This document shows positions 1-27,826 of a stretch of DNA of 32,174 nucleotides, one piece after another. The notes beneath the pieces were generated by a model that was not told the DNA's origin, did no database searches, and was given only the letters and a program-made list of their open reading frames with translations. Numbering within the stretch: the stretch's first letter is position 1; each line of letters starts with the position of its first letter. The position numbers and the translations under genes are program-made. The DNA is from a virus. The DNA is taken from positions 1 to 32,174 of IMG/VR virus record IMGVR_UViG_3300035698_004831. The stretch is one strand, 5' to 3'.

Positions 1-95
1 GCTAGATATGCACCCACACCAAATGATAATAAATAACCCAATACTTTTAGGTCTTTCTTTAATACTTCACTTAATACTATTTTTTTCTTTGTCAT
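1..95 (-). CDS. Partial small membrane protein (lysis region)
   Basis: The gene enters at its ATG (position 95) and runs off the left edge after 31 codons. Its ATG overlaps the TGA of the C39 peptidase gene (ATGA), so the two are probably translationally coupled. The visible part has a lysine-rich start (MTKKKIVLSEVLKKDLKVLG) followed by a hydrophobic stretch (YLLSFGVGAYLA) that looks like the first membrane helix. Next to a holin-like gene and a cell-wall peptidase, a second holin or another lysis membrane protein is possible. The fragment is too short to assign a family. Confidence 0.6.
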   Translation of the reverse strand, partial: MTKKKIVLSEVLKKDLKVLGYLLSFGVGAYL

Positions 96-997
96 GAACT
101 CTCACCCACTTTCGTAAAATACTTTAATTTTATAAATTCCCATAGTCCATAATCAAGCAAATTCTTAGCCTGTGAGGCTTTTAGGTCACTTCTGAGGGCT
201 TTCTCGGTGACTTTGGCTATGTCTACCTTGTTTTTCAACGAAGCCACCTCCTCAGCCAACGTTTTATTCTTCGCTTCAAAGGTATCGGCCCTCCAAGCTG
301 CCTTATCCCTCTCACCTCTTGCCTCAAGTAACTGTTTAGCAAGATCCGAGTTGTCCCGCTCTTGTGTTTCAAGGTCCACTCTAAGTCCAGCGACTTCTTC
401 AGCCTTTTTAGACAAGTCTGTATTACAACTCTTGAGAGAGTCGTTAAGGTCTGAAATTTTGTCTTCTTGTGATACTTCATTTTTAGGTTCTCCTGAATAA
501 AGCCTTAATCCATAAATATATCTTGCTGGCTCACCATACTTGGCGTGGAAGAAATATGTTTCTCCAGTCCAAGGGTCGTTTATTAAGTAATGCCCATCGT
601 CTGATTTACCTATTATTAGAACGAAGTGTGTTTGCACCCCTGCTGTGGGTGAGAAGTCTACCATTGCTATTACCGGTTTTTTCTCGTTCAAATACTTATC
701 TATCTTTGTTAAATCGCAAGGTAAGTCGTAACAATTATAAAATTCGTCTGCGGTTATATCTCCAAATACGTTGGCTGCTGCAAAGAAATTGACCATGTTT
801 TTTTGGTCAAATACGTTCTTATCTTTGTATACTTCGTTTAGTACATCTGGTAAAAACTCATGTCCGTAATAACTTAACAACATTGCGTGGCAAGTTAAAA
901 GGCATCCTTTGTTCGATATTGTGCTAGTGCCAGTTCCTAGTTTTTTTCTTGACCATCTAACGTCCTTTTGCGATAATGGATTTATCGGGAGTTTAAT
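92..997 (-). CDS. C39-like cysteine peptidase with C-terminal coiled coil, ATT start (putative endolysin)
   Basis: The first ATG (883) lies inside the catalytic domain. Reading upstream, the frame stays open to a stop at 1016-1018 and adds the missing N-terminus: LPINPLSQKDVRW, then the catalytic-Cys motif GCLLTCHAM (C32). The partner His is in QTHFVLI (H124) and the Asp/Asn in INDPW (about 140-141), so the C39/papain-like triad is complete only with this extension. No ATG, GTG, TTG or CTG occurs in it. AAAGGAGG lies four to five bases before ATT at 997, which aligns with the ATG of a duplicated 5' end at 1667. Residues about 170-280 form a Glu/Lys/Ala-rich coiled coil. Its place beside a holin-like gene suggests peptide cleavage in the cell wall. 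Whether the substrate is peptidoglycan is inferred. The peptidase fold is well supported; the ATT start is strongly suggested but unproven. Confidence 0.8.
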   Translation of the reverse strand: MKLPINPLSQKDVRWSRKKLGTGTSTISNKGCLLTCHAMLLSYYGHEFLPDVLNEVYKDKNVFDQKNMVNFFAAANVFGDITADEFYNCYDLPCDLTKIDKYLNEKKPVIAMVDFSPTAGVQTHFVLIIGKSDDGHYLINDPWTGETYFFHAKYGEPARYIYGLRLYSGEPKNEVSQEDKISDLNDSLKSCNTDLSKKAEEVAGLRVDLETQERDNSDLAKQLLEARGERDKAAWRADTFEAKNKTLAEEVASLKNKVDIAKVTEKALRSDLKASQAKNLLDYGLWEFIKLKYFTKVGESS

Positions 998-1608
998 ATT
1001 TCCTCCTTTAGTTTTCTATTTTCTTTTCTTAACTTTCTGATTACTTTTTCCATAATGGTATAGATATTATGTTCCTTCGGTTTAACTAACATCAAATTTT
1101 CGATAGCATTATTTTCTGGGTTGTTGTCAATATGATGGACTTGTTCCCATGAGTTGAGTCTTCTGCCGAGCTCTTGTTCCATAATGTATCGATGTTCCCA
1201 AACATTTCCTCTACCTCTAATGTAAATTTTGATATATTTTCCACCAGAAACTTTTTTCCTTTTACCAGCTGTTTTTTCGTAAAAACACTCCGAAGAACAG
1301 TATTTACGCTTTTTTGCTTGAGACTCCGTATGAACCAAGAAACTCTTTCCACAAGTTTTACAAACCTTTTTTTCTTTATAACCAATACCAGTTCTTGCTT
1401 TAACAGAACACTCTTTACTACAATATCTTTGAATTTTTCCAATGCCCTGGTTTTTGGGATAGAAACTTTTCTTGCAGATAGGGCAGTTAGCCACTCTTCG
1501 TCTTTCTCTCCTCGCTTCCCCCCAACATCCTCTTGAGCAATATTTATATGGTTTATTGCCAGGCCGATGAAACTTTTCCTTACAAACCTCGCAGATATAA
1601 TTTGCCAT
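982..1608 (-). CDS. HNH homing endonuclease with three zinc-ribbon repeats
   Basis: This 208-residue protein begins with three similar zinc-binding repeats of the form CxxC...CSxxC (CEVCKEKF/CSRGC, CPICKKSF/CSKEC, CKTCGKSF/CSSEC). An HNH_3-type nuclease core follows: EHRYIMEQELGRRLNSWEQ, then VHHIDNNPENNAIENL, which has the paired His and the Asn-rich loop of the family. The C-terminus is a basic helix (KVIRKLRKENRKLKEE). It is a mobile gene, not a phage core function: it separates a remnant of the C39 5' end (1620-1667) from the working peptidase, and its last codons overlap the new peptidase start. Its own extended -10 box (TGGTATAAT, 1614-1622) lies five bases before the ATG, with no Shine-Dalgarno site. 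Confidence 0.9.
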   Translation of the reverse strand: MANYICEVCKEKFHRPGNKPYKYCSRGCWGEARRERRRVANCPICKKSFYPKNQGIGKIQRYCSKECSVKARTGIGYKEKKVCKTCGKSFLVHTESQAKKRKYCSSECFYEKTAGKRKKVSGGKYIKIYIRGRGNVWEHRYIMEQELGRRLNSWEQVHHIDNNPENNAIENLMLVKPKEHNIYTIMEKVIRKLRKENRKLKEEILNSR

Positions 1609-8957: not shown

Positions 8958-8963
8958 ATTATA
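8958..8963 (-). promoter_or_regulatory. -10-like box before the tail protein gene
   Basis: TATAAT, five bases (AAGTT) before the ATG at 8952. It overlaps the stop codon of the homing endonuclease gene (GTA TAA). No ribosome-binding site is visible. Confidence 0.4.
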
Positions 8964-9390
8964 CTATGTTTGGTTTAAACCCCTTTGGTTGAATCAATTT
9001 GTTGTCATAGTCGTATTGTTTATGACACGAAGCACATAACCGTTGCCAATCATTCAAATCTCTTTTATATTTATGGTCTTTGTTTGACCAATGCATCCCC
9101 ACCTTATTGTCACTAATTTTTCCGCAAAAGTCACAAACATTTGGCGTACCCATTATTCTCTTTACCCACGAATGTATCGAGGATTGACTAGCTTTGTCAC
9201 CCTTCCACGCTGGATGTTTATCACCAGTTATTTGGGGAATCTTCTTTCCTTTATAAAAACCCCACATTTTTTTTAGTGCCTGAAGTTGTTTGGGAGTTGG
9301 CTTTCTTCCCTTACTTGCTTTACCAATTTTTTTTAGTGCTTCTTTTGTATGAATGTGTCCTTTTACAAACCTACCTTGTTTGTCTCTCAT
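8959..9390 (-). CDS. HNH homing endonuclease with NUMOD3-like N-terminus
   Basis: This 143-residue protein has a basic N-terminus with NUMOD3-type motifs (GRFVKGHIHTKEALKKIGKA, SKGRKPTPKQ), which in this group bind DNA. The nuclease part (about 65-130) has CDFCGK, HWSNKDHKYKRDLNDWQRLC and CASCHKQYDY, so two zinc-binding Cys pairs frame the HNH fold. It lies between the connector-like gene and the tail protein gene, a typical place for a free-standing homing endonuclease. TAAAAT is six bases before the ATG and no Shine-Dalgarno site is present. Confidence 0.9.
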   Translation of the reverse strand: MRDKQGRFVKGHIHTKEALKKIGKASKGRKPTPKQLQALKKMWGFYKGKKIPQITGDKHPAWKGDKASQSSIHSWVKRIMGTPNVCDFCGKISDNKVGMHWSNKDHKYKRDLNDWQRLCASCHKQYDYDNKLIQPKGFKPNIV

Positions 9391-9421: not shown

Positions 9422-10318
9422 TCAACTGATGGTTTTTGACCAAAGGAAACTGACATTTTGGTTGCTTCTTCTGGCCATGTTGCGTTTGATTAAGCGTTTG
9501 TCGCTACGACTTGCGTACTTCTTTATACCTCTATCCACAATTTTCTGATACATATTTTCCCACTTATCTGCAGTTACAGAGTCTTTGCGTGGTCCTCTAA
9601 AGTAATCGGAAGTTGTGCCGTGACTCAATGCCTGGTGGAGCTCTGGTGGGAGCTCAGGGGATTCTCCTAAAGTGTAAGCCTGTCCTGCACCCGTTGTACC
9701 TTGAAATTTAGAATCTAGTTCGATAATGCTTGTACTGGTAAAACTCGTAACTCTATACCAATAACCATCTGTGTCCGATTTGATGAAACGTCCCACCATT
9801 AAAGCTGTGAAGGATGTTGCAGAGTCAGTAACAGTTGCGTCATCATTCGTAAATGTAGCTGTTCCTGTTATGTCTGCGGTGGTTAAACTCCTATCTCTAT
9901 AATGAGATCCAAAGTTAATTGTATAAACAGCATCAGGTATAGGACATAATAAATAATCATCTCGTCTTGGGAAGATGTGGGTTGGATAATTACTAATGGT
10001 TACATAGTTTAAGTGGTCCCAAATTAGCTGTGAATTAACTACTTGGAGAGGAATATTTTGATCTCCAATATCAACATTTACAGCTTCGACATTAACTATT
10101 CCTGGTGGGTAATCATAATTTGCCTGATCTGCAACAGTTGACTTTGTTGTAGGAGGAGCTTCTGTTTTGTAAGTAGTAAACTGAGATAAAAGGTCTTGGT
10201 AACGTGTACCTAGATGCCTATCATGGAATGCTTTTAACGTAGTATCCGTAGAGCCTGGATTGCCAGTATTATCTCTAAAATCTGCCCAAAGATTTGTGTA
10301 GGTTAAGCGAATAGTAAT
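9422..10318 (-). CDS. Connector/adaptor-like virion protein with ATT start
   Basis: The first ATG (9799) would give only 125 residues, but the frame is open from a stop at 10331-10333. The upstream part is clearly protein: RLTYTNLWADFRDNTG, YDYPPGIVNVEAVNVD, PTHIFPRRDDYLLCPIPDA. It has no ATG, GTG, TTG or CTG codon. GAGAGGAG lies just before AAT ATT, and ATT at 10318 gives (M)TIRLTYTNL, a natural N-terminus. The 298-residue product follows the order of a common phage structural protein placed between head and tail genes, with MVGRFIKSDTDGYWYRVTS and ELPPELHQAL near the C-terminal half. A head-tail adaptor is the best guess. The coding region is well supported; the ATT start less so. Confidence 0.75.
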   Translation of the reverse strand: MTIRLTYTNLWADFRDNTGNPGSTDTTLKAFHDRHLGTRYQDLLSQFTTYKTEAPPTTKSTVADQANYDYPPGIVNVEAVNVDIGDQNIPLQVVNSQLIWDHLNYVTISNYPTHIFPRRDDYLLCPIPDAVYTINFGSHYRDRSLTTADITGTATFTNDDATVTDSATSFTALMVGRFIKSDTDGYWYRVTSFTSTSIIELDSKFQGTTGAGQAYTLGESPELPPELHQALSHGTTSDYFRGPRKDSVTADKWENMYQKIVDRGIKKYASRSDKRLIKRNMARRSNQNVSFLWSKTIS

Positions 10319-10358
10319 ATTCTCCTCTCTTTAGTAAGTTTGATGAGCCTCATACTTC

Positions 10359-10367
10359 ATTATAACA
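10359..10367 (-). promoter_or_regulatory. Extended -10 promoter of the ATT-start connector gene
   Basis: TGTTATAAT just after the stop of the LamG protein gene. The leader to the ATT at 10318 is about 34 bases and contains the strong ribosome-binding site GAGAGGAG, so unlike several neighbours this transcript would not be leaderless. Confidence 0.45.
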
Positions 10368-25987: not shown

Positions 25988-26148
25988 TTTTCTTGATGTA
26001 AAAGTAACATAATAAGTGACAACTCAAACTGGTGATTTTGTGCTATTGCGAGAATTTTAATATTGACTGGCATATTTGACAAAAGAATCCTATCGGTGCT
26101 TTCGTGTGTCGTTTTGATTAATTTCTTAACTGTTATATTTTGTTTCAT
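25984..26148 (-). CDS. Small hypothetical protein after the RNA ligase
   Basis: The start is ATG 26148, overlapping the RNA ligase stop (ATGA). The 54-residue product begins MKQNITVKKLIKTTHESTDR and ends in a hydrophobic segment (ELSLIMLLL) with a short charged tail. The start-codon region is nearly identical in DNA to that of the small gene at 28657. No function known. Confidence 0.55.
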   Translation of the reverse strand: MKQNITVKKLIKTTHESTDRILLSNMPVNIKILAIAQNHQFELSLIMLLLHQEK

Positions 26149-27167
26149 TTTGTTCTTTCTATTCCACCAGCTGGTGATATGTCTTTCCATACCTCCTTTA
26201 TTTCACTCTTTTTATATTTCTTAAACATTTTCTTGGCTTGTTCTTTTCTAGTAGGTAAATCCTTAACCTTCTCCCAATCTTTTATTGCAGTCATCTCTAG
26301 AATAGCAAATGCTTTCTCCAACCCTTCTTTTGTTTTCTCTACCCAATCAATAAATTCATCTGGTACTCGGTCCATTAATTCATCAAAACTTTCGCTATGC
26401 CTAAGCAAGTCCCAGATACTTTTTGAGTTAACGCCAGTAACCAGTCTATGAAGCCTTACGTACTCCTCATATTTCATTTTCATTCTGACTCCTGACTTAT
26501 ACCTAATAACAAATCCTTCTGCGTTATCTCGCATAACCTTAGTAATTTCATCTACGCTGTCAAAGCTAAACCTTTTAACTGTGGGTATCTTCCAAGTCTT
26601 AGCAAACGCTTCTAGCTCATCGTAGGAAAGCTCCTCGTCTTTATTTATATAGTAGCAAGCAATAAGAAACAAATCTTCAACCTCTCCATAGTTAACCACT
26701 ATCCTGTTTTGGGGGTATATGATTTCGAACAAGTATGTTTTGTCCTTGTCAAAAGGAACATCTTTATACTTTTTGCGTAAGATTTCATTTGCCTTAATTG
26801 CTTGGTCGCTAACAAAGCTACCCCTAGTGGATATGTTTGGTTGGCCTTTAGAGTCAAAGTATAAAATTCCAAGGGAGCCGTCTAGTTTGTCAAACACCTC
26901 AAATTCTTCTATGGGTAATGCTGGAAGCTTGCTGTCCTCTCCAGTATGTTCTCCATAGTTAAAAAACTTTTTAAATGGCCTAGCTTTAATGTTGCCTTCA
27001 AGGTCAGTTATTAGCCCACGAGCTATTGTGGTTTCTGGTGTCCACTCTTTGCTGAATTGCGCTTTGTGTGTGTAGCTCCAAACCAATAGGTCATCCGTAG
27101 GATGCTTTTGTACACTAATAAATTTCTGTTCTACTAGCTCATTAAATTTAGAGAGGTTAATTTTCAT
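26145..27167 (-). CDS. T4 Rnl1-like RNA ligase
   Basis: This 340-residue ATP-dependent ligase has motif I FDKLDGSLG with the nucleotidyl-accepting Lys (K94), close in position to K99 of T4 Rnl1; motif III-like YLFEIIYPQNRIV; motif IV EGFVIRY; and motif V VRMKMKYEEYVRLHR. Rnl1 enzymes seal 5'-phosphate and 3'-hydroxyl RNA ends and in T4 repair host-cleaved tRNA. The gene starts on the stop of the nucleotidyltransferase (ATGA), so the two are probably made together. The last 16 residues (VWKDISPAGGIERTK) recur in an unrelated zinc protein at 28654. No kinase-phosphatase gene is seen in this window. Confidence 0.9.
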   Translation of the reverse strand: MKINLSKFNELVEQKFISVQKHPTDDLLVWSYTHKAQFSKEWTPETTIARGLITDLEGNIKARPFKKFFNYGEHTGEDSKLPALPIEEFEVFDKLDGSLGILYFDSKGQPNISTRGSFVSDQAIKANEILRKKYKDVPFDKDKTYLFEIIYPQNRIVVNYGEVEDLFLIACYYINKDEELSYDELEAFAKTWKIPTVKRFSFDSVDEITKVMRDNAEGFVIRYKSGVRMKMKYEEYVRLHRLVTGVNSKSIWDLLRHSESFDELMDRVPDEFIDWVEKTKEGLEKAFAILEMTAIKDWEKVKDLPTRKEQAKKMFKKYKKSEIKEVWKDISPAGGIERTK

Positions 27168-27826
27168 TTCCAATTTTCCTTTCTTACCTTCAACAGAAAA
27201 TCGTTAACCTTATCCACGTTAGTAATCCTCTTGTTTGTTTTATCGTATGCTTTCTCAACCTTTAATTGCCATTCGCTTGTAACCTGAATTACCTCACCAA
27301 TAGTAAAACCACCTTCCTTGAACTTTCTAACTATCTCTCCAACTGGCGTGTCTGCAACTCTTACTGTAAACGTGCCTGTTTTTAATAGTTCGTATGCGTT
27401 ATATAAAACCCTCAGATAAGCAGCAGCGTACTTTTCCCTTCGACCATCCTTATTGTCTAAGAACTTTTTTCTTTGGTTTAATCCATATCCAATAAAGGCA
27501 TTTCTAACATCGATGCTATTCCAAACATGAGGAAATAGGCTTCTCATTTCCATGCCAATTTCATCAGAGTCGGCAATCGGAGCTAGAAAAACCTCAAGAA
27601 TTGTGGGATTGCTCTTAGTTGCCAAGAAAAGGAAGTGTCCTATTTCGTATGAAGTATCATCAACCTTTCCTTCAATCCAGCTTGTGTGTTTTTTCTTCGG
27701 GCCCAAGGCTAGAATCTCATTAGTCGGTTGCACAAAAACTCCCCGATAATCAAAATCGCTATCTTTGTTTGCTAGACCGTGAGCATGAGATCCAACAATC
27801 GTTTTTAGTATCGTTTTGTTTTTCAT
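27164..27826 (-). CDS. Pol-beta-superfamily nucleotidyltransferase
   Basis: This 220-residue protein has the signature VGSHAHGLANKDSDFDYRG: the GS of the helix turn (12-13) and the acidic D-x-D metal-binding pair (D24, D26). It then continues with the helical region typical of the COG3541-type predicted nucleotidyltransferases (YAAAYLRVLYNAYELLKTG, GEIVRKFKEGG). Its substrate is unknown. Since it is translationally coupled with an RNA ligase, RNA-end modification before ligation is a reasonable hypothesis. It abuts the small-terminase-like gene upstream (TAA ATG). Confidence 0.85.
   Translation of the reverse strand: MKNKTILKTIVGSHAHGLANKDSDFDYRGVFVQPTNEILALGPKKKHTSWIEGKVDDTSYEIGHFLFLATKSNPTILEVFLAPIADSDEIGMEMRSLFPHVWNSIDVRNAFIGYGLNQRKKFLDNKDGRREKYAAAYLRVLYNAYELLKTGTFTVRVADTPVGEIVRKFKEGGFTIGEVIQVTSEWQLKVEKAYDKTNKRITNVDKVNDFLLKVRKENWK

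Follow-up and report, generated by a model that had tools for sequence, protein, structure and literature searches.

AUU as the probable start codon of a phage portal-tail adaptor gene, with AUU or ACG recurring at the homologous position in other phages

Translation of the portal-tail adaptor (connector) gene in the window, i.e., the whole IMG/VR virus record of 32,174 bases with its genes on the minus strand, likely begins at an AUU codon (position 10312, less likely 10318) behind a Shine-Dalgarno (SD) sequence. An endolysin-like gene of the same phage also appears to start at AUU (position 997), and AUU or ACG recur at the homologous adaptor position in other phages; for this reading as a whole, derived from sequence comparison, we estimate a probability of roughly 0.75. 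AUU-type start codons are normally rejected by bacterial ribosomes. AUU initiation in the adaptor gene can be regarded as well supported, and AUU use, as proposed in the initial annotation, is the best reading of both sites, with unrelated contigs having AUU or ACG at the position homologous to the adaptor start.

The adaptor gene and the position of its start

The frame 10330..9422 is open over 302 codons from a TAA (10333..10331) to the stop at 9422 (Table 1). That it lacks ATG, GTG, TTG and CTG over about 170 N-terminal residues, as initially annotated, was confirmed, the earliest such codon being ATG 9799, i.e., codon 177 of the open frame and 171 codons past ATT 10312. From the phage's own codon usage, the probability of 171 coding codons without ATG, GTG or TTG is about 0.004. 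The leader reads, in minus-strand order, TGTTATAAT, ATG 10353, TAA, GAGAGGAG, AAT, ATT 10318, ACT, ATT 10312 and CGC; hence, the ribosome-binding site claimed to precede AAT-ATT is indeed present, and close to it ATT 10318 and ATT 10312 are the only near-cognate codons. When the whole window was scanned automatically for genes combining an open upstream extension, an intergenic gap, an SD, and a near-cognate codon, exactly two were retrieved, the adaptor gene and the one at 997, both with ATT. An alternative genetic code was considered as well, but no sign of TGA recoding was found, as 16 of the 45 window genes end in TGA.

Table 1. Features around the two putative AUU starts of the window.
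Feature	Position	Strand	Remark
Adaptor (connector) gene, from proposed AUU 10312	9422..10312	-	296 codons plus stop
Proposed start codon AUU (second ATT)	10310..10312	-	aligned with relatives' initiators; 9 nt after AGGAG
Alternative AUU (first ATT, initially annotated)	10316..10318	-	same frame; 3 nt after AGGAG
Shine-Dalgarno GAGAGGAG	10322..10329	-	direct reading
Upstream ORF MRLIKLTKERRILLFA plus stop	10303..10353	-	16 codons, out of frame; direct reading
In-frame ATG 10360, then TAA nine codons on (MKYEAHQTY, stop)	10331..10360	-	needs TAA readthrough
Extended -10 promoter element TGTTATAAT (putative)	10359..10367	-	aligned with TGATATAAT of L034
Second AUU gene (putative), Peptidase_C39_2-like, endolysin-like	92..997	-	Pfam PF13529, E 2.3e-12
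Shine-Dalgarno AAAGGAGG	1002..1009	-	4 nt before ATT 997
Gene upstream of the 997 gene	982..1608	-	overlaps the 997 gene

The product is a portal-tail adaptor like those of SU10, GP4, and N4 (PF24175), which would sit between portal and tail as a ring of about 12 copies. While IMG/VR searches with only the window protein as query gave nothing, a three-member alignment opened the family, and 27 of the 34 aligned proteins hit the Pfam model SU10_adaptor, at best with E 1.3e-22; taken by itself, the window protein scores 21.5 bits (E 3.5e-4), under the curated cut-off of 27. An AlphaFold2 model built from the relatives (mean pLDDT 85.5) has podovirus portal-tail adaptors as best PDB matches (A4, VP1, Pa223, GP4, SU10, and N4), with TM-scores of 0.44–0.69 depending on the target, and all 11 matches at E ≤ 0.001 stem from phage portal-tail or tail assemblies, including those of SU10, GP4, A4, and N4. 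Compared with the shorter PDB adaptors, the window protein likely bears an insert of about 60 residues which the former lack. In the model, the first 171 residues comprise the two N-terminal helices and the greater part of the beta domain, so that a protein from ATG 9799 would miss most of the fold; more than half of the predicted adaptor fold is thus located upstream of the first ATG, and the N-terminal part is needed for it. Non-AUG starts are not known to be a feature of this adaptor family. With the adaptor of the nearest relative, L034, the window protein shares 68% identity over its whole length, and the mismatches in the first 60 codons number 20, 11, and 32 at codon positions one, two, and three, respectively. 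This third-position bias, which begins right at the start, marks the frame as translated.

Regarding the exact position, the initial annotation favored ATT 10318, which follows AGGAG at a short spacing of 3 nt. However, the start is probably ATT 10312, six bases on, and would be AUU either way. The latter is better placed, being 9 nt after AGGAG and aligned with most initiators of the clade, namely the ATG of L012, L043, L046, L035, L154, L156, and L157, the TTG of L010, the ATT of L153, and the ACG of L158. Most genes of the clade start immediately before an RLTYT motif, exactly where ATT 10312 sits, giving MRLTYT (L012, L043), MRLSY (L046, L154, L156), and MKLSY (L035) as well as, from codons other than ATG, TTG-RLTYS (L010), ATT-RLTYT (L153), and ACG-RSTFT (L158). 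L034 begins as MSAGRQTYT at a leaderless ATG, and L033 as MSAGRLTYT. In L153, ATG-ACC occupies the place of ATT 10318, albeit in another frame, so that 10318 keeps some probability as the start. The string AATATTA, initially emphasized as common to both ATT sites of the window, does exist, but only at 997 does it coincide with the likely start. Because the adaptor start is probably at 10312 rather than 10318, the shared GGAG-AATATTA layout is probably in part coincidental, and as a signal this motif was rejected, the other AUU and ACG sites being devoid of it.

Recurrence at the homologous position

A canonical start is absent from the homologous position in seven of about 45 related adaptor genes, and in every one of them exactly this place is taken by a near-cognate codon: ATT in the window, L153, MW202566, L028, and L031, and ACG in L029/L030 and L158. 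Each is preceded by an SD-like motif, the weakest being the AGGA of L031. The initial annotation would have counted ATG throughout the relatives against AUU; most of them do begin with ATG, yet not throughout. In a second clade, characterized by a WDDA motif, ATT (MW202566, L028, L031), ACG (L029, L030), and ATG (L005, L142, L143) occur side by side. In MW202566, ATT 24880 lies 8 nt after GGGAGG and ahead of the first conserved residues of the annotated frame, whose only in-frame ATG is found 14 codons upstream, before the SD; in a tblastn search of GenBank phages with L005, the match opens exactly at this ATT, paired with M1. The annotated start of this gene (MW202566.1:24838-25788, L003:5953), 14 codons upstream of the likely ATT 24880 and ahead of the SD, is probably wrong. 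Initiation at a downstream ATG yielding a shorter protein was considered instead and would be possible in L028, L029, L031, and L003, where such a codon follows after 22–29 codons, whereas the 171 codons preceding it in the window exclude this.

On a tree of 36 adaptors, which omits L153 and L158 as these were found after it had been built, the ATT label requires at least three changes, with gains and losses being indistinguishable, and the window's closest kin use ATG. From codon usage of the respective phages, the probability for the seven cases is about 2e-7 for any near-cognate codon and about 3e-10 for ATT or ACG, the cases having been found by alignment and not by a blind scan. A blind scan for genes whose first canonical start comes only after a long open stretch retrieved 5 of 42 adaptors compared with 21 of 414 other genes (p = 0.08), many of the 21 probably being spurious ORFs, and the combination of SD and near-cognate codon occurs in arbitrary genes at about chance frequency. 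With blind enrichment this weak, the case rests on exact homology of position and not on a motif. As the adaptor gene has AUU or ACG there in several other phages, a weak start seems to be a recurrent property of this gene rather than something peculiar to a single contig.

The same data bear on whether AUU has any function. Possibly, although we consider this rather doubtful, the codon is nearly neutral, a strong SD tolerating decay of AUG to AUU or ACG without a regulatory role. Strong SDs are indeed present, and the relatives flip between ATG, TTG, GTG, ATT, and ACG. On the other hand, it is the same gene that is affected repeatedly, and both observed codons belong to the class rejected by initiation factor IF3. 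Moreover, the leaders of the window's clade suggest selection limiting adaptor expression. A -10-like element 49–68 nt upstream together with a terminator-like hairpin, counted by a simple hairpin rule only, precedes 11 of 16 clade adaptors (L033, L158, L010, L154, L156, L157, L160, L046, L035, L012, and L043) versus 5 of 166 other genes. The hairpin with its T run is located just before the adaptor start, ending 5–22 nt ahead of the start codon, and might represent an attenuator or a small RNA. Three further adaptor genes of the clade are leaderless. Overall, this suggests that adaptor expression is limited in several ways, a weak start being one of them.

Leader region and other genes with weak starts

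The leader of the window adaptor also offers canonical codons. ATG 10353 lies 5 nt after the TATAAT of a putative promoter, at the position where L034 has the adaptor's own leaderless ATG, and relative to L034 a net insertion of 32 nt separates this old start from the adaptor frame. Since 32 nt is one short of in-frame, a single missing base would put ATG 10353 in frame, and translation might accordingly start there, followed by a frameshift or with a one-base indel within 10353..10312 in the contig or the phage. The nearby ATG of L029 and L153 would likewise come into frame by a one-base change. This explanation is nevertheless quite unlikely: a slippery heptamer was not seen by eye at the overlap, the direction of the required shift is inconsistent across the window, L029, L031, and L003, L028, L158, and the 997 gene have no out-of-frame ATG close by that could be restored by an indel, and the N-terminal extension of such a longer protein is absent from the relatives. 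Very improbable is a pseudogene or a start lost by sequencing error. Although the window itself is known from one contig, the adaptor displays the pattern of purifying selection and the full-length identity to L034 described above, and the argument against sequencing error initially drawn from two ATT cases is extended by AUU or ACG at the corresponding place in six more contigs, which come from different studies. Readthrough of TAA 10333 from ATG 10360, which is in frame with this single stop in between, is the least probable reading, as that ATG coincides in part with the -10 element and would precede the probable transcript start, similarly laid-out relatives differ in frame, and the SD between stop and AUU would be left unexplained.

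At the second site, AAAGGAGG-AAAT-ATT(997)-AAA, the ATT aligns gap-free with the ATG of L002 (45% identity) and L025 (55%), and the upstream gene runs on into this one, its stop (984..982) lying 13 nt past the first base of the ATT. Besides, in a Woesebacteria MAG contig (L009:5075, also L036 and L039) the gene after the adaptor seems to be AUA-started with AAGGAGG-N8 ahead, its homolog in L040 having an ATG two codons further on. In 9 of the 45 window genes, TANAAT is found 10–14 nt before the start, compared with 0–2 genes in other five-base bins (e.g., minus-strand starts 1608, 1877, 6126, 7108, 8952, 9390, 14174, 16558, and 23545), suggesting that these genes may be transcribed into leaderless mRNAs. 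Other genes of the window, all on the minus strand, encode an HNH/homing-endonuclease-like protein directly downstream of the adaptor gene (8959-9390), an RNA ligase of the T4 Rnl1/tail-fibre attachment type adjoining a nucleotidyltransferase (26145-27826), and a GroEL-like chaperonin with about 39% identity to that of MW202566 (29173-30741).

Initiation at AUU or ACG and its possible role

For the proposed AUU/ACG starts, the SD would recruit the 30S subunit, the initiator tRNA would mispair with AUU or ACG, and most of the resulting complexes would be rejected by IF3, so that the codon might act as a throttle giving a low, IF3-dependent adaptor yield. AUU might serve low, fixed copy numbers, as initially proposed; other virion genes for 12-copy proteins, e.g., the portal, begin with ATG. 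Terminating ribosomes of an upstream ORF may aid initiation at the weak start by coupling. The ORF from ATG 10353 spans both SD and AUU, its stop following 7 nt behind the latter. Including this case, short ORFs in another frame terminate close to the weak start, from 7 nt ahead of it to 14 nt past it, in the window, L029, L031, L153, and MW202566. Coupling of termination and re-initiation is possible, such overlap being common anyway in compact phage genomes.

IF3 destabilizes initiation complexes formed at any codon but AUG, GUG, and UUG and thereby represses non-canonical starts (PMC5472188); at high levels, it also inhibits leaderless mRNAs and SD-less re-initiation (PMC2268962; PMC9031893). 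The closest parallel is infC, the IF3 gene, with AUU, AUC, or AUA starts of the same rejected class and autoregulation by IF3 (PMC5472188). As in this class, the adaptor has a near-cognate codon and no ATG, GTG, or TTG at the likely start, as positioned by the alignment with ATG relatives, and an SD at workable spacing (AGGAG-N9 in the window adaptor, AAAGGAGG-N4 in the 997 gene). However, infC is cellular and feeds back on its own product, whereas the adaptor is a phage structural gene without IF3 feedback. Strong SDs also precede the conserved weak starts of Staphylococcus aureus cvfC1 (AUU) and ccpN (AUA), where yield is reduced, in a study also covering leader-peptide control of another gene (PMC13009471). 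These are experimentally mapped host regulators or small proteins, while the adaptor is a virion protein recognized from sequence, and its weak codon recurs without being conserved. In the case of Streptomyces sigR, IF3 repression of a non-canonical start sets the stoichiometry to the antisigma partner, and the gene had been annotated wrongly from a canonical codon further upstream (PMC5472188), which probably also applies to the MW202566 adaptor; in sigR, codon (GUC) and product (a host sigma factor) differ. In the open literature, which leaves most subscription journals outside, no precedent for AUU or ACG starts in phages was found, including recurrent ones in a structural gene.

Adaptors related to that of the window are present in MAGs of Woesebacteria and other Patescibacteria and in a phage assigned to TM7, as well as in MAGs bearing the labels Terriglobia and Scalindua, which may be misleading because of binning. 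IF3 is encoded in all four MAGs holding related adaptor genes, and of 59 genomes sampled from the Woesebacteria class, 57 have it as well, though the host of this phage may belong to neither set; some infC genes of that class themselves lack an ATG, GTG, or TTG start. It is conceivable, though unlikely, that the late program is run in part via leaderless mRNAs and IF3-rejected AUU, ACG, and AUA starts in structural and lysis genes, the start codon serving as timer and stoichiometric control. If so, a late fall in IF3 or a changed ribosome pool would release adaptor, tail, and lysis proteins together.

Gene callers accept ATG, GTG, and TTG only, and adaptor genes of this kind are therefore truncated or mis-started in annotation; the window adaptor would be called with 125 of its 296 residues. 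If AUU and ACG indeed recur in one virion gene of different phages, the choice of start codon would be a point at which a structural protein of low copy number is controlled, and this would concern viruses that are not yet culturable.
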